In this document: in pieces, positions 52,891 to 58,763 of the stretch
Layout: every line of letters begins with the position of its first letter
Position numbering within the stretch: position 1 is the stretch's first letter
Assembly: GCF_002727185.1 (NCBI RefSeq)
Contig: NZ_NIZW01000001.1
Span: forward strand, 124,001-188,000
Reading direction: 5' to 3'
DNA from: Rhodopirellula bahusiensis
GTDB lineage: Bacteria; Planctomycetota; Planctomycetia; Pirellulales; Pirellulaceae
Length of the DNA: 64,000 bases
Program-made: the position numbers and the translations under genes
The notes under the pieces: generated by a model
The model's input: the letters and a program-made list of their open reading frames with translations, nothing else
Told to the model about the DNA's origin: nothing
Database searches by the model: none

Positions 52891-55800
52891 TCAGGCCGTG
52901 CCGCGAAGTTTCGCGGGCGAATCGCACAAATCGTTGTGGTGGTGAGCCGTGCGTTCGACGGTGAAACGAATTTGATCTTCGCTGTGCTCGCTGGTGATAA
53001 AGAACCGCAACCGCGCGGCTGACTCATCGACGGCCGGGTACAGAATCGGTTGGACGTTGATGCCGTCTTTCTTCAGCCGGTTGCTCAATCGCAGTGCCAG
53101 CAAGCTGTTCCCGGTGATCACGGGGACAACGGGGGTCCCGCAACTGTCTCCGGTGTCCAATCCCGCGTCCTTGCACAAGCTCAAGAACAGTTCGCTGTTG
53201 TGGCGAAGACGCTGGACTCGTTCTGGTTCACGTCCCAGCACGTCCAACGACGCGATCGCCGCGGCGACCTGGCCGGGAGGCATGCCAACGCTGAAGACAA
53301 ACCCAGGAGCGGTGTAACGAAGTAACTCGACCAATGCTTCACTGCCAGCGATGTAGCCGCCGCAGGAGGAGGCTGATTTGCTGAGCGTGCCCATCCAAAT
53401 ATCAACGTCGCGAGCATCGAAGCCAAAGTGTTCGGCGATGCCGTGACCGGTCTCACCCATCGTTCCAAAGCTGTGGGCTTCGTCGACCATCAACATCGCG
53501 CGGTGGCGTTTCTTGACTTCGACAAACTTTGGAACGTCGGCGAAGTCGCCGTCCATGCTGTAGACGCCCTCGATGATGATCAACGTCCGACGATATTGAC
53601 CACGCAAAGCGGTCAACATTTTGTCCAATGCTTCGTAGTCATTGTGCGGGAAGGGACGACGCTTGGCACCGGACAGCAAGGCACCTTGGACGATGCTGTT
53701 GTGCGACAGTGCGTCGTGCAAGATCAAGTCGCCTGGTCCGACCAAGTGACCGATCGTCGTTTCGTTGGTCGCGTGACCGCCAACCATCGTGATGGAACTT
53801 TCGACTCCGACCCACTTCGCGATCTTGCGTTCGAGTTCACCGTGGATGGGCTTCTCGCCGCTGACCAAACGGCTGGCTGATACGCTGGTTCCGTACTTGG
53901 CGATCGCATCGGCGGCCGCCTTCGAAACCTCTGGGTGACCGCTCAGGCCCAAGTAGTTGTAACTGGCGAAACTGATCAGCGATTTTCCATCGACAATCGT
54001 TTTGTCGCCGACGACACAATCGTGAACGGTGAAGTATGGATTCGGGACTCCCGTCAATTGCATCTGACGCATCGTCGATTTCAACCGGCGGTACTCAGCA
54101 AACTGAGTCACGTCATCTTCGGGTTCGACTTGCGGAGTCTGCATGACTCGAGCGAGCGGGCCTTCGCCGTCGGTCCTGGCTTCGCCGTTGGCGTTCGTGT
54201 TGACGAGATCGTCATCGCCATCACGCTGTGTGTCACCGCGTCCCGCCAAGAACTGTTCGGCTCGACCGAGGGCGCCCGCGGGCAGATAACGTTCAACAGC
54301 GGTCGCGATTTGGCCGATTGTTTCGATTTCATCCAGCACTTGCTCGGGGAAGCGACCACCAAAGGTGCGTTCCAGGTTCCTGGCGATCTCGAGTCGTTCC
54401 AGACTATCAAGTCCCAGGTCGAGCACGATGTTGGTATCGGGATTGATCGATCCAGCTCGCTCGCCAGCAATGGCACGCACGTGCGACACGATCGCCTCGG
54501 CAACCACCGGATCCGATGCCGTGTCCAATCCGCTCGCGTCGGACGCGGCAGCGGCCTTCATCATCGTTTCGCCAGCCAAACCGGCGTTGTGCAGCGAAGT
54601 TTCTTCGCCGCGAATCCACTGGGCGATGACCTTCAATTCTTTGTCGCGAACAGCGTGCAAACACGCGTGACGCTGAATTTTTCCGCTGCTGGTTTTGGGA
54701 ACCGAGCTGTTGCGAACCAAGTAGATCGCATCTGGCGGCAGGTCGTGATCTTCCGTCACTGCGCGACGAATCGATTGCAGGTGATCGTCCCAATCCAAAT
54801 CTCGCTTGCGAACGGTCTCCGCGACGATGATCAATTTTTCGCGTCCGGTTTCGGTTTCATCGCTGTCCGCGTTCATCGCGAAAGCGGCGACGGAGCCGGC
54901 TTGCACGACATCGCTGGCGTGCTCCACCGTCGCTTCGATGTCTTGTGGGTAACGGTTGACGCCACGGACGATGATCATGTCCTTCAGACGACCGGACACA
55001 TACAGCTGACCGCCGTACAAGAACCCGAGGTCGCCTGTTCGAAGGAAGGGGCCGTCGCCCTCGGCGGTCATCGCGGCAAATGTTTTGGTTGATTGTTCGC
55101 GACGTTGCCAATACCCGCGTCCGACCGATGGGCTCTGCACCCAGATCTCACCGATCGCATCGGCTGGCAAAGTCTGCCGCGTGTCCGGATCGACGATCAA
55201 GACTCGTTCGCCGGGCAAGACTTGGCCGCAACCGACCAATTCTCGCGTGGCACGTTTGGATGTTTCGGCTGGGGACGCGGCAACCGCGTCAGAAACTTCC
55301 ACAGCGGGACGCACGGCCTTCTCATCCAGAGCGGGCCCATCGAACTGTTGCAACACCGGGCGAGGTGCTTGCGGACCGCCAGTCACGATCAGCGTTGTTT
55401 CCGCCATGCCGTAACACGGCAAATGCGAGGTGTGACGGAAGCCATATTTTCCGAATCGTTCCGTGAACGCATCCAACGTCGATGAACGAACCGGTTCGGC
55501 TCCATTGAAAGCGATCTCCCACGAGGAAAGGTCGATGCCTTCGAGTTCTTCGTCGCGAATTTTGTCGACGCACAATTGGTATGCGAAGTTCGGCCCACCA
55601 CTGATCGTGACTTGAAGTCGAGCGATCGTTTGCAACCAACGAGCGGGCCGCTGCAGGAACGCCATCGGGCTCATCAGAATGTTGTGTCGTCCGACAAACA
55701 TCGGCATCAACACACCACCGACCAAACCCATGTCGTGGTAAGTCGGCAACCAAGACGCGCCGATGATGGTCGACTGCGGTTCAAACCCGTGCAGGATCAG

Positions 55801-56478
55801 TTCGCTGTTGGCGATCAAGTTGGCCTGCGTCAGCATCACGCCTTTGGGTGACCCGGTCGAACCGGATGTGTACTGCAACACACCGAGCGCTTCGCTACGA
55901 AGTTTCGGGCATCGCCAATGAGCCGCGTCCCGTTTGCTGGGAACGTCGGTTCCCAAGAGTTGGACACCGACCAGATCTTCGTGCAGTTCATTGCCTGACA
56001 GCTGATCGACGACCGAGCGGGTCGACAGAGCCCAACGGGCATCGGCATCGACAACGATCGAACGGATCCGAGAGGCTTTGCGGTTGCGGCGTGGAGGATA
56101 GGCCGGAACCGCGATCGCACCGGCCGCGTGGGTCGCGAACAGGCCGATGACAAAATCAAGACCTGGCGGGTAGAGCAACAGCACACGGTCGCCGGCTCGG
56201 ATGCCGCAGCGACCTTGCAAGTATCCGGCCAGCCCGCTGACTTCTTTCCACAATTCGGCGTACGAAAGCGTTTGATCCGAGCCTTCCCCGTCGGTGAACG
56301 TGAACGCGGGAGCGTCTGGGCGCACGTCCACCCAGTGTCGCAAAACCGAGACAAAATGGTCGCGAGGGGGCGCTTCGTTTTTGAAATACTGTTGGAGGTC
56401 CACCGAATTCAACCTGTTGCAATGATGCCGTCGCAGAACAATCTCGTTCTCTCTTGACCGTATTCTCGGACGCTCCAT
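52891..56478 (-). CDS. fatty acyl-AMP ligase / acyl carrier protein / alpha-oxoamine synthase fusion
   Basis: A 1195-residue trifunctional protein. Domain 1 (about 30-630) is a FAAL-type adenylating enzyme: P-loop YTSGSTGSPKGVML near residue 203, AVPAYPPRRNRKAS, CYGMAETTLIVTG and VNRYPQDIE. Domain 2 (about 660-740) is an ACP with phosphopantetheine serine S692 in LGLDSLERLE. Domain 3 (about 800-1195) is a PLP alpha-oxoamine synthase: SYNYLGLSGHPEV, DEAHSFGTMG, and the PLP lysine K1034 in GTLSKSAS. This order would activate a fatty acid, load it on the built-in ACP and condense it with an amino acid, as in the first step of sphingolipid synthesis. The start ATG 56478 adds about 25 basic residues; GTG at 56403 or TTG at 56412 is also possible. 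Confidence 0.88.
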   Translation of the reverse strand: MERPRIRSRENEIVLRRHHCNRLNSVDLQQYFKNEAPPRDHFVSVLRHWVDVRPDAPAFTFTDGEGSDQTLSYAELWKEVSGLAGYLQGRCGIRAGDRVLLLYPPGLDFVIGLFATHAAGAIAVPAYPPRRNRKASRIRSIVVDADARWALSTRSVVDQLSGNELHEDLVGVQLLGTDVPSKRDAAHWRCPKLRSEALGVLQYTSGSTGSPKGVMLTQANLIANSELILHGFEPQSTIIGASWLPTYHDMGLVGGVLMPMFVGRHNILMSPMAFLQRPARWLQTIARLQVTISGGPNFAYQLCVDKIRDEELEGIDLSSWEIAFNGAEPVRSSTLDAFTERFGKYGFRHTSHLPCYGMAETTLIVTGGPQAPRPVLQQFDGPALDEKAVRPAVEVSDAVAASPAETSKRATRELVGCGQVLPGERVLIVDPDTRQTLPADAIGEIWVQSPSVGRGYWQRREQSTKTFAAMTAEGDGPFLRTGDLGFLYGGQLYVSGRLKDMIIVRGVNRYPQDIEATVEHASDVVQAGSVAAFAMNADSDETETGREKLIIVAETVRKRDLDWDDHLQSIRRAVTEDHDLPPDAIYLVRNSSVPKTSSGKIQRHACLHAVRDKELKVIAQWIRGEETSLHNAGLAGETMMKAAAASDASGLDTASDPVVAEAIVSHVRAIAGERAGSINPDTNIVLDLGLDSLERLEIARNLERTFGGRFPEQVLDEIETIGQIATAVERYLPAGALGRAEQFLAGRGDTQRDGDDDLVNTNANGEARTDGEGPLARVMQTPQVEPEDDVTQFAEYRRLKSTMRQMQLTGVPNPYFTVHDCVVGDKTIVDGKSLISFASYNYLGLSGHPEVSKAAADAIAKYGTSVSASRLVSGEKPIHGELERKIAKWVGVESSITMVGGHATNETTIGHLVGPGDLILHDALSHNSIVQGALLSGAKRRPFPHNDYEALDKMLTALRGQYRRTLIIIEGVYSMDGDFADVPKFVEVKKRHRAMLMVDEAHSFGTMGETGHGIAEHFGFDARDVDIWMGTLSKSASSCGGYIAGSEALVELLRYTAPGFVFSVGMPPGQVAAAIASLDVLGREPERVQRLRHNSELFLSLCKDAGLDTGDSCGTPVVPVITGNSLLALRLSNRLKKDGINVQPILYPAVDESAARLRFFITSEHSEDQIRFTVERTAHHHNDLCDSPAKLRGTA

Positions 56479-56796
56479 GACCAGTCATGCGGTGCGAAGG
56501 GGCAATCAGTCATTGACGCAATGATGCACCAACGGCGCGTTTCGGCCAAGGGTTGGCCCCACCCTGACTCCTGGAACCTTCCTGCAGAGGGGGCGAGGTC
56601 GTCGCATCACTCCGCTGGAAACTGTTTGCGTCGACATCTCAAGATCGAGTTGCTACCCCGCTATGATGGCTTATTCGAGGTGCCCAACGCCACCTGACAT
56701 TGACGAAAAACCCCCACGTTGTCTCTGTGGCGACCTTTCGGGTAAACCAGACCAACGCCCACCCTCCTATTTCCGATCGAACGGACCCTATCGCAG
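56479..56796. other. 318-bp divergent intergenic region
   Basis: Lies between the fusion gene (-) and the flavin oxidoreductase gene (+), so shared promoters are likely. TTGACG-like hexamers occur near 56513 and 56700, but no convincing matching -10. No gene supported. Confidence 0.4.
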
Positions 56797-58107
56797 ATGA
56801 GTACGCCGAACATGAAGGATTTCTACGATTGCGTGGTGATTGGTGGAGGCCCGGCCGGCGGTACCGCAGCAGCGATCGTGGCTGAATCGGGTGCCAGCAC
56901 GCTGTTGATCGAACGAGACCCTGTGCCTCGGTTTCACGTCGGCGAGTCGCTGATGCCCGAGTGCTACTGGCCGCTGGAACGACTGGGGTTGATCGATCAG
57001 GTCAAACGATCGGGCTGGCAGACCAAGAAAAGCGTTCAATTTGTCACCCACACGGGCAAAGAGTCTGCCCCATTCTTTTTTCGCGAACATGATGAACGGG
57101 AGTGCAGCACGACTTGGCAGGTCGAACGCAGCGAATTCGACAAAATGCTGTACGACCGTGCATCCGAGCTGGGAGCCGACTGTTTCGACCGAACTCGATT
57201 GATTGACGTACAAACGGAAGCCGGCGAAACGCCTGATCAACCGGTTGCTCGCGCCGTGGTCGTCAAAACCGCCGATGGAACCGAGAAAACGATCGGCTGC
57301 AAAGTCGTCGTGGATGCAACGGGCCAACAAGCGTTTCTGGCCGGGAAGATGGGACTGAAGGAGATCAATCCTGATTTGAAGAAGGCCGCGATTTGGACGT
57401 ACTACCGCGATGCGGTTCGCGGCGAAGGCGACAACGACGGGGCCACAATCATCCTGTACACCAAATCGCGAGACTCGTGGTTCTGGTTCATCCCGCAATC
57501 TCGTGGCATCACCAGCGTCGGCTGCGTCGGTGACAATGACTACTTGCTCAAGGGCCGCGGAACGCCCGAGGAAATCTTCGAGGAAGAGTTGGCCAATTGC
57601 CCGGGACTCGCTCCACGTTTGGCCAATGCAACTCGCGTGGGCAAAATCACCACGGCGAAAGAATTCAGCTACATGACCCGCCGTCACGCTGGACCGGGCT
57701 GGGTCCTGATCGGCGATGCACTCGGATTCATCGATCCGGTTTACTCCTCCGGCGTCTACTTCGCTCTCGAAATGGGCGTTCGCGCGGGCGACGCGATTGT
57801 CGATGGCCTGAAGAAAAACGACCTGTCACCGGAACAACTTGGAAACTGGACCGAAGATTTCAAAGAAGGTGCGTCGAGAATTCGCGAACTTGTGCACGCG
57901 TTTTATAACAAGGATTTCAGCATCGGGCGGTTCATGAAGGAACATCCCGAGTACCGCGGCAACGTGACGGACTTGCTGATTGGAAGGGTATTCCACGAAG
58001 ATGCGGGCAAAATGTTCCCGGCCCTCGATCGTTCGATCGAAATGGCTCGGGCCAATGCCATGTCCAAGGCCGATTCGATGGCCGATACCAAACCCATGTC
58101 GACTTAA
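56797..58107 (+). CDS. flavin-dependent halogenase-family oxidoreductase
   Basis: FAD-dependent enzyme of 436 residues. The N-terminal dinucleotide motif is VVIGGGPAGGTAAA, followed by VGESLMPECYW; the GDALGFIDPVYSSGVYFALE region near the C-terminus binds FAD. The WxWxIP motif that marks flavin halogenases is present (W228-F-W230-F-I-P), and K77/K78 could supply the catalytic lysine. Relatives also include non-halogenating dehydrogenases and geranylgeranyl reductases, so chlorination is not certain. It overlaps the HAD gene by 1 nt (TAATG) and is divergent from the acyl-ligase fusion, suggesting a shared pathway. Confidence 0.82.
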   Translation: MSTPNMKDFYDCVVIGGGPAGGTAAAIVAESGASTLLIERDPVPRFHVGESLMPECYWPLERLGLIDQVKRSGWQTKKSVQFVTHTGKESAPFFFREHDERECSTTWQVERSEFDKMLYDRASELGADCFDRTRLIDVQTEAGETPDQPVARAVVVKTADGTEKTIGCKVVVDATGQQAFLAGKMGLKEINPDLKKAAIWTYYRDAVRGEGDNDGATIILYTKSRDSWFWFIPQSRGITSVGCVGDNDYLLKGRGTPEEIFEEELANCPGLAPRLANATRVGKITTAKEFSYMTRRHAGPGWVLIGDALGFIDPVYSSGVYFALEMGVRAGDAIVDGLKKNDLSPEQLGNWTEDFKEGASRIRELVHAFYNKDFSIGRFMKEHPEYRGNVTDLLIGRVFHEDAGKMFPALDRSIEMARANAMSKADSMADTKPMST

Positions 58108-58763
58108 TGTCCCAATCCAATCCTGAAGCCGCTTCGTCACTCAGTCCTAGTGAATCCGGACAACTGCATCTCGATACAGCAATCTCCCAAGATTTGGCGG
58201 AACGCTACGAGGGTCTGATCTTTGACTGCGACGGAACGCTGACCAATTCGATGCCGCTGCACTACCTAGCGTGGCACGAAACCATGACACGTCACGGCAT
58301 CGAGTTCCCCGAAACGCGATTTTACGCGATGGGTGGCATGCCCAGCGAAAAGATCATCGCGGTGTTGAGTTCGGAACAAGGCGTGACGGTCGACGTTGAT
58401 TTGGCGACCGAAGAAAAAGAGGCCAACTTCATCGCTCGCATCCCGAACGTCGAGCGTTTGGCTCACGTCACCGACATCGCGGAACGCCACCTCAATCGCA
58501 TCGCCATGTCCGTGGCCAGCGGAGGCATGCGGGACATCGTCGCGGATCAATTGCGAACGATCGGCGTCGCGGATTGGTTCCCTGTCTTGGTCGGCAGCGA
58601 AGACACTGAGCTGCACAAGCCCGAACCCGACGTGTTCTTGTGTGCTGCCGAGCGAATGGGCGTGGATCCCAAACGCTGCCTCGTTTTCGAAGACAGCCCC
58701 CTCGGTTTCGAAGCCGCCCAGAAAGCCGGCATGGATTGGGTCGACGTTCGAATCAACGCATAG
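58107..58763 (+). CDS. HAD-superfamily phosphatase (beta-phosphoglucomutase-like)
   Basis: Predicted 218-residue phosphatase or phosphomutase. The four HAD motifs are visible: LIFDCDGTLTNS, MSVASGGMRD, HKPEPDVF and LVFEDSPLGFEAAQ. The cap region between motifs I and II is helical, as in subclass I. Start ATG overlaps the previous stop codon by one base, indicating coupling with the flavin enzyme. The substrate is unknown; a phosphorylated intermediate of the neighbouring pathway is a possibility. Confidence 0.88.
   Translation: MSQSNPEAASSLSPSESGQLHLDTAISQDLAERYEGLIFDCDGTLTNSMPLHYLAWHETMTRHGIEFPETRFYAMGGMPSEKIIAVLSSEQGVTVDVDLATEEKEANFIARIPNVERLAHVTDIAERHLNRIAMSVASGGMRDIVADQLRTIGVADWFPVLVGSEDTELHKPEPDVFLCAAERMGVDPKRCLVFEDSPLGFEAAQKAGMDWVDVRINA

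Follow-up and report, generated by a model that had tools for sequence, protein, structure and literature searches.

A single-chain fusion of fatty acyl-AMP ligase, acyl carrier protein and alpha-oxoamine synthase, widespread in Pirellulales and probably involved in aminoketone lipid synthesis

In Rhodopirellula bahusiensis, a stretch of 64,000 nucleotides (the window; assembly GCF_002727185.1, contig NZ_NIZW01000001.1, positions 124,001 to 188,000) encodes a protein of 1195 residues in which a fatty acyl-AMP ligase (FAAL), an acyl carrier protein (ACP) and a pyridoxal phosphate (PLP)-dependent alpha-oxoamine synthase (AONS) are joined in one chain (Table 1). This fusion is probably a self-contained, ACP-fed synthase of long-chain alpha-aminoketones, whose product would probably serve an envelope lipid. 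Its domains and reaction type are known, whereas the one-chain form, widespread in the order Pirellulales, is uncharacterised as far as the literature was searched. The FAAL domain would adenylate a free long-chain fatty acid, most likely of C16–C18, and pass the acyl group to the ACP that follows it in the chain, whose phosphopantetheine arm is predicted to sit on S692. With PLP bound at K1034, the AONS domain would then condense the acyl thioester with serine, alanine or glycine with loss of CO2, and release a long-chain alpha-aminoketone, for instance 3-oxo-sphinganine. The reaction would probably be the first committed step of Pirellulales towards an envelope lipid or a lipid anchor, with reduction and any N-acylation carried out by enzymes encoded elsewhere. 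Such a route, in which a free fatty acid becomes acyl-AMP, then acyl-ACP, and is finally condensed with a small amino acid under decarboxylation, had been proposed in a preliminary description of the region, and as a prediction it is backed by the evidence that follows.

The three-domain composition of the protein is borne out by the open reading frame (ORF) and by Pfam, which places AMP-binding (residues 47–457), AMP-dom_DIP2-like (500–620), PP-binding (662–728) and Aminotran_1_2 (834–1174) in this order. Both S692 and K1034 are invariant in an alignment of 20 rows, made of the window protein and 19 relatives picked from the best 80 loci that a scan of named genome contigs returned. An AlphaFold2 model built from the same rows is of moderate quality (mean pLDDT 74.6, pTM 0.51), and its low-confidence linkers (626–653 and 748–786) part the domains, so that their relative orientation cannot be read from it. 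The alignments of many relatives to the fusion start around residue 24–26, and the frame of the R. baltica fusion begins just ahead of this point; the real start may therefore be the GTG at residue 26 rather than the ATG that opens the frame.

Table 1. Features of the fusion protein and of genes discussed beside it (window positions, except in the last row, where they are those of the locus named).
Feature	Position	Strand	Basis
FAAL-ACP-AONS fusion protein	52891..56478	-	ORF call, Pfam; ATG at 56478, alternative GTG start near 56403
FAAL domain, residues ~41–621	54616..56358	-	Pfam; best PDB sequence 7r7f; best fold match
ACP domain, residues ~656–746	54241..54513	-	Pfam PP-binding; helical segment in model
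S692 codon, predicted phosphopantetheine site (LGLDSLERLEI)	54403..54405	-	Invariant in 20/20 aligned rows
AONS domain (PLP-dependent), residues ~788–1185	52924..54117	-	Pfam Aminotran_1_2; AONS trees
K1034 codon, predicted PLP Schiff-base lysine	53377..53379	-	Aligned to K244 of S. multivorum serine palmitoyltransferase
H926 codon, predicted PLP-stacking and carboxylate-anchoring histidine	53701..53703	-	Aligned to H138 of the same enzyme
Divergent flavin oxidoreductase (halogenase / geranylgeranyl-reductase type)	56797..58107	+	Pfam, NCBIfam; neighbour, system membership not established
Haloacid dehalogenase (HAD) phosphatase (beta-phosphoglucomutase / YqaB type)	58107..58763	+	Pfam, NCBIfam; neighbour, system membership not established
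BBP7-like beta-barrel protein beside a fusion, example L053	6908..8158	-	Sequence, profile

The fusion is co-linear and contained in a single frame in 73 of the best 80 loci (match from residue 45 or earlier to 1160 or later), with 46–72% identity within the best aligned piece, while the other seven frames run past contig ends; this excludes a chance join of the domains. These relatives include Rhodopirellula, Rubripirellula, Stieleria, Roseimaritima, Pirellula, Blastopirellula, Mariniblastus and Bythopirellula, as well as one metagenome-assembled genome (MAG) labelled Kuenenia. Among 146 genomes of the window's own order, which the named relatives suggest to be Pirellulales, own genome included, 142 match the FAAL or the AONS at E 1e-100 or better, and 115 match the AONS at E 1e-115 or better. 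The AONS lies inside an open frame of 1000–1400 aa in 111 of the 146, a number that counts the AONS in long frames, with a FAAL match of equal frame length listed for many. The fusion is thus not unusual inside its own order.

In a sample of 199 genomes of the phylum, scored with up to three candidates per genome, the matches listed include the close co-linear chain in the window genome and in the two other sampled genomes from its family and order. Four genomes that belong together in another family have a more distant type, whose AONS lies in a frame of about 1100 aa; the one protein of this type scanned with Pfam is FAAL-ACP-AONS. A third FAAL-ACP-AONS protein, of 1109 aa, is encoded at locus L040 (7623–10949, minus strand; genome G121). 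Its AONS places next to a Streptomyces AONS fused to a short-chain dehydrogenase/reductase (SDR), outside the clade of the fusion described below, which suggests that this architecture evolved on more than one occasion.

The N-terminal domain is nearer to FAALs than to acyl-CoA ligases by both sequence and fold. NCBIfam-type models that bear the name FAAL, FadD32-like or fatty-acid--AMP ligase give it 314–422 bits, compared to 306 bits (PRK07768) and 179 bits (PRK06187) for the best models named after acyl-CoA ligases, with none of the scored models of either kind reaching its curated cut-off on the window protein. The nearest solved FAAL, again by sequence and by fold, is that of the Synechococcus olefin synthase (7r7e, 7r7f and 7r7g; 44% identity, TMt 0.86), and ranks 1–27 of the fold search are all FAAL, FadD32 or FadD23 structures (5d6j through the sequence that it shares with 5ey8). 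The hallmark of FAALs is that they reject coenzyme A (CoA) and load holo-ACP (PMC8460268). Since two of the three Synechococcus entries, both of engineered variants, hold stearoyl-adenylate (7r7f) and palmitoyl-adenylate (7r7g), a free fatty acid of C16–C18 is the likeliest substrate.

The ACP domain scores 49 bits on Pfam PP-binding (cut-off 20.8) and appears in the model as a helical segment between the two linkers. The genome encodes two PF01648 proteins, one AcpS-sized (frame of 126 aa) and one Sfp-sized (frame of 281 aa), the latter being a candidate second phosphopantetheinyl transferase. The genome also holds a second FAAL-ACP protein, of 780 aa and without AONS, on its contig C2 (L051, 9248–11587, plus strand).

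In the AONS domain, residues H926, D999, H1002, T1031, K1034 and R1158 align with H138, D210, H213, T241, K244 and R367 of the serine palmitoyltransferase (SPT, or Spt) of S. multivorum, where H138 stacks on PLP and anchors the substrate carboxylate (PMC10196870). Each of the six is kept in 32–33 of the 33 fusions compared (the window and five representatives of two more distant fusion types among them), K1034 and H926 in 32. A fusion homologue from a marine Pirellulaceae MAG (ALOHA), at locus L128 (10007–13483), has an AONS that looks catalytically dead. As the PLP- and substrate-binding residues are common to nearly all AONS rows, they are not diagnostic of Spt. Ala79, which in the S. multivorum enzyme contacts the substrate side chain via a water (PMC10196870), corresponds to Ser867 in the window protein and to serine in all 26 clade rows compared, a group that Acidisoma and Nocardia stand outside. 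The catalytic residues thus leave the choice of amino acid undecided.

The phylogenetic place of the domain was examined in two trees, for which bacterial AONS were sampled from plasmids, planctomycetes and the PDB. In the first (77 rows, among them 25 of the best 80 fusions), the window falls inside a 46-row clade of fusions, RkpG-type proteins and AONS fused to polyketide synthases (PKS), with support of 100/98. The second (62 rows) kept six of these 25 fusions, leaving out L128 among the 19 dropped as well as L168, L152 and L148, which are long or near-duplicate, and recovers the same kind of clade with 28 rows (99/99). In these trees, bacterial Spt and cysteate-C-fatty acyltransferase (CFAT) form one separate clade, and BioF and Kbl form others. 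The approximately unbiased (AU) test rejects the union of the 28-row group with five bacterial SPT rows (p 8.8e-7), also when eukaryotic LCB2 is added to them (p 2.5e-6). These and the other AU p values are optimistic, since the groups were defined only once the first tree was known. The third domain, called serine-palmitoyltransferase-like in the preliminary description, consequently does not belong to the bacterial Spt lineage; it is neither this nor BioF, and belongs with the RkpG-type and PKS-fused AONS.

A tight grouping with BioF, which the preliminary description had singled out as telling against its proposal, is likewise rejected (AU p 1.2e-8), and the genome encodes a separate BioF-like gene; no further AONS beside this gene and the fusion was found in a search of the genome. 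This bears on a role in biotin synthesis, in which the FAAL-ACP portion would stand in for BioW or BioC and the AONS would act as BioF. It is true that TIGR00858 (bioF) is the top curated AONS model on the window protein and that BioWF (PMC9544090) offers a precedent, as it also fuses an acyl-activating enzyme to an AONS. However, the score of 353.9 bits lies under the cut-off of 426.45 and below that of the separate BioF-like gene (389.9, also under the cut-off), and the FAAL matches long-chain enzymes. BioWF, in turn, turns pimelate into a CoA thioester, has only two domains and possesses BioF activity. The biotin reading, which is highly improbable, was rejected on the grounds of the missed cut-off, the separate gene and the AU test.

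The closest AONS in plasmid records, at 50–56% identity, come from Sinorhizobium meliloti, Pseudomonas, Caballeronia, Paraburkholderia, Shinella and Methylobacterium, together with a Streptomyces KS-AT-ACP-AONS protein (KS, ketosynthase; AT, acyltransferase; domains assigned by reading the sequence) and a Planktothrix PKS-AONS; the Spt of the ceramide clusters of E. coli and Pseudomonas are only about 31–35% identical to the window AONS. The S. meliloti protein, from a record labelled pSymB that gives no gene name, is taken here to be RkpG, and the gene order around it is a PKS-sized gene, the AONS, an SDR and capsule genes. Five annotated RkpG-type loci (S. meliloti, Caballeronia, Paraburkholderia, Pseudomonas and Shinella) share the clade of the fusion and an adjoining acyl-ACP maker. 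All five have a PKS-sized neighbour, annotated as a type I PKS in four and as an SDR in S. meliloti, where it is presumably RkpA; an SDR is found in four of the loci, capsule or polysaccharide-export genes in four and an LTA-synthase-like gene in three. More generally, most clade members whose loci are annotated are encoded within or next to a type I PKS, an enzyme that makes acyl-ACP. What distinguishes the fusion is that the RkpG-type enzymes receive their acyl chain from the neighbouring PKS, whereas its FAAL is in the chain itself.

These relatives raise the possibility that the aminoketone is a carrier or anchor of a surface polysaccharide, with FAAL-ACP replacing an RkpA-type PKS. In the rkp system, the K polysaccharide is believed to have a lipophilic carrier or anchor that rkpA and rkpGHIJ serve to make, modify and transport (PMC3557214), and the nearest AONS outside Planctomycetota include those RkpG-type proteins with PKS, SDR and capsule genes as neighbours. 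Against this, Pfam finds no PKS, SDR or capsule-export gene of the rkp type in the five flanking window ORFs, and the neighbours annotated in other fusion loci, a part of all, are of a different kind. An anchor of this type is hence somewhat unlikely.

The PKS-AONS proteins of Streptomyces anthocyanicus, Planktothrix and planctomycetes resemble the fusion in holding ACP and AONS in one chain, with an AONS of the same clade, and differ from it in that their chain is built by KS-AT modules. The only planctomycete PKS-AONS scanned with Pfam (genome G107) has the order FAAL-ACP-KS-AT-AONS, with the FAAL in front. PKS-fused AONS are believed to act in natural-product pathways, and the presence of these PKS-AONS and FAAL-ACP-KS-AT-AONS proteins in the clade would agree with a role of the fusion in secondary metabolism, in which an aminoketone derived from alanine, glycine or some other amino acid would undergo cyclisation or be secreted as a small-molecule product. 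However, the wide retention of the fusion in Pirellulales makes a core role likelier than that of a sporadic metabolite. Moreover, no neighbour family exceeds 17 of 80 loci by clustering (24 of 56 by profile for the largest), and the ten neighbour families looked at, by sequence or Pfam, include none that is biosynthetic. A secondary metabolite is therefore quite unlikely.

The order FAAL-ACP-KS-AT-AONS, as in the protein of 2044 aa at L048 (9152–15283, minus strand), is a form between the fusion and PKS-AONS. Other arrangements were encountered too. In addition to the fusion, ten genomes from the family of the window genome contain a frame of about 2.6 kaa (L039, 418–8082, plus strand, in one of them) with an AONS 61–62% identical to that of the window; in genus g158, the AONS of this frame is nearer to the window's than is the AONS of the genus's own fusion. 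In 21 Pirellulales genomes (G283:C192, G205:C42 and others), an AONS lies in a frame of 390–660 aa, mostly at 50–53% identity and in addition to a fusion.

Beyond bacteria, Arabidopsis LCB2a alone is sister to the clade of the window in the 77-row tree (97/91), and together with yeast LCB2 in the 62-row tree (98/92), while a clade of LCB2 and bacterial Spt is rejected (p 1.9e-4). When LCB2a was used as a query against 119 Planctomycetota genomes, the first five matches all belonged to the clade of the window, with the window fusion third; three more members of the clade ranked only 23rd, 25th and 37th. The catalytic residues listed above are the same in the Arabidopsis row. On the other hand, LCB2 sits on a long branch, its identity to the window AONS is just 31–32%, not above its identity to bacterial SPT (30–35%), and none of the clade's five diagnostic columns is common to both LCB2 rows. 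Against plasmids, the matches listed for LCB2a are led by a Bacillus glycine C-acetyltransferase in rank and by the Planktothrix PKS-AONS in bits. The kinship between the clade and LCB2 should therefore be regarded as a lead. LCB2 itself functions as a heterodimer with LCB1, on acyl-CoA.

This kinship is one argument for the fusion being a true sphingoid-base synthase, which would use serine to make 3-oxo-sphinganine, in a Pirellulales sphingolipid route assembled independently of that of Caulobacter and Bacteroidota. The retained equivalents of Ser81, Thr241 and His138 of the S. multivorum SPT point in the same direction. The low ranks of three clade members, the AU rejection of a union with bacterial SPT with or without LCB2, the replacement of Ala79 by serine, residues that do not settle the amino acid, and flanking ORFs in which the scan found no ceramide genes (bacterial ceramide synthase, bCerS, was not searched for) speak against it. 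The sphingoid-base reading is possible, with a less than even chance. A bolder proposal, that the fusion makes an unrecognised core outer-membrane lipid on a sphingoid-type base, as a single-chain ACP-fed synthase whose catalytic domain shares an ancestor with the LCB2 lineage apart from the known bacterial sphingolipid enzymes, is unlikely.

The preferred reading, an ACP-fed long-chain AONS whichever its amino acid, has a close functional parallel in the three proteins AasR, AcpR and SPT of Caulobacter crescentus and E. coli BL21; the preliminary description had drawn the comparison with Caulobacter. There, both the ACP and the acyl-ACP synthetase that charges it are specialised, and the acyl-ACP so formed is the preferred substrate of SPT (PMC9386255), so that a free fatty acid reaches a PLP-dependent AONS through a dedicated acyl-ACP, as predicted for the fusion. 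The parallel holds as an analogy: the three are separate genes and the SPT belongs to the other AONS clade. The Spt clusters of E. coli and Pseudomonas further include an epimerase/dehydratase gene, which we take to be of the CerR type, unlike the window flanks. A different acyl-ACP arrangement was observed on a Legionella lytica plasmid (NZ_CP071528.1, L135, 5863–10731), where an AONS whose best PDB match is CFAT, a FAAL-ACP-ComA fusion of 970 aa and a ComB-type phosphatase stand in a row, seemingly a pathway that makes a sulfonolipid base from cysteate and acyl-ACP.

A number of observations weigh against the preferred reading. A Nostoc alpha-oxoamine synthase from outside the SPT clade is reported to have yielded no 3-ketosphinganine in E. 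coli (PMC8895605), and fold and residues thus do not prove activity. A Black Sea survey, which describes 138 Planctomycetota MAGs with Spt-like proteins, deems homologues outside its Spt-like clade likely not to be related to sphingolipids (PMC11334938). In the L128 homologue, the PLP lysine is replaced by Thr and the PLP-stacking histidine by Asp, and 35 of the 146 Pirellulales genomes, some of them 99% complete, have no strong AONS match in a frame of 1000–1400 aa. For one clade member, Acidisoma, the 11 kb examined contain no PKS. Finally, the five flanking window ORFs scanned (Pfam; three also with NCBIfam) contain no SDR, epimerase or acyltransferase, and so no candidate for the reductase or ceramide synthase, although bCerS was not searched for; the best matches in the genome are CerR-like (33%, on another contig) and RkpH-like (32%), both generic.

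The genes beside the fusion offer little additional guidance. Upstream lie a flavin oxidoreductase and a HAD phosphatase, which indeed overlap by one base (58107) and which the preliminary description regarded as possible modifiers of the product. As partners of the fusion the two are not conserved. No HAD match was found at E 1e-15 in the best 80 fusion loci, 55 of which have at least 3 kb upstream, nor adjoining the flavin gene in the best 29 of 82 genomes that match it, some of these loci ending at contig ends; an operon of the two as a conserved functional unit was rejected for this reason. An FAD protein (25–27% identity) occurs in only two of the 80 loci. Taken alone, the flavin enzyme is common in the order (82 of 97 genomes at E 1e-60, own genome among the 82), and wherever positions are given for both genes it usually sits apart from the fusion; about nine genomes have no listed place for the fusion, and many assemblies split the two genes over contigs.

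Nevertheless, when positions are compared by eye, at least seven of the 82 genomes, own included, have the flavin gene and the fusion no more than 12 kb apart: in five genomes of one family it is divergent at 7–11 kb, with beta-barrel-like, rhomboid-like and other genes in between (by sequence look; the barrel also by profile), and in one further genome it is on the same strand at 4 kb. The loci of these six other genomes show no recognisable biosynthetic cluster, and the proximity would reflect old synteny at best, and not an operon.

When the neighbours in the best 80 loci are clustered, the largest family besides the fusion occurs in 17, and the families found, each in a subset of loci only, include rplM, rpsI and tadA (names that we presume from the start of the sequences), rex (named from its Pfam domains) and a protein with an asparagine-synthase domain. 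The most repeated neighbour is a BBP7-like beta-barrel protein (Pfam score below the cut-off). By profile, it lies within 1.5 kb downstream of the fusion in 24 of the 56 loci with at least 2 kb downstream, convergent in 23, and it is co-directional and upstream of the fusion in the family of five genomes mentioned above (L216–L220). In the window genome, the best BBP7-like homologue is on a different contig, and a single-sequence search retrieves the barrel in six of 97 genomes, as it is too divergent to be counted across the order. This neighbour gives at most a hint of a role of the fusion in the outer membrane.

Title and abstract searches of the open literature, to which subscription papers do not belong, returned no description of a FAAL-ACP-AONS fusion among the matches listed, and no paper joining "fatty acyl-AMP ligase" and "alpha-oxoamine synthase". 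A word search of the main text of a 2025 FAAL review (PMC11837247) gave no oxoamine, aminotransferase, pyridoxal, palmitoyltransferase, sphingo- or planctomycet- words. Among the matches listed for Rhodopirellula lipids there was no usable report of sphingolipids or aminolipids, and saframycin Mx1 synthetase combined with Rhodopirellula returned nothing in the open literature searched.

Pirellulales live in water, and most of their sampled genomes, as judged from sequence, encode an enzyme that should channel free fatty acids towards aminoketone lipids. Should it make a sphingoid-type base, the order would produce sphingolipids that could escape surveys based on the Spt clade; otherwise, the envelope of these bacteria would hold a new lipid. 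Because the activities share one chain, acyl loading, the amino acid and the product are all testable on a single purified protein, and the possible kinship with LCB2 would bear on the origin of eukaryotic sphingolipid synthesis.

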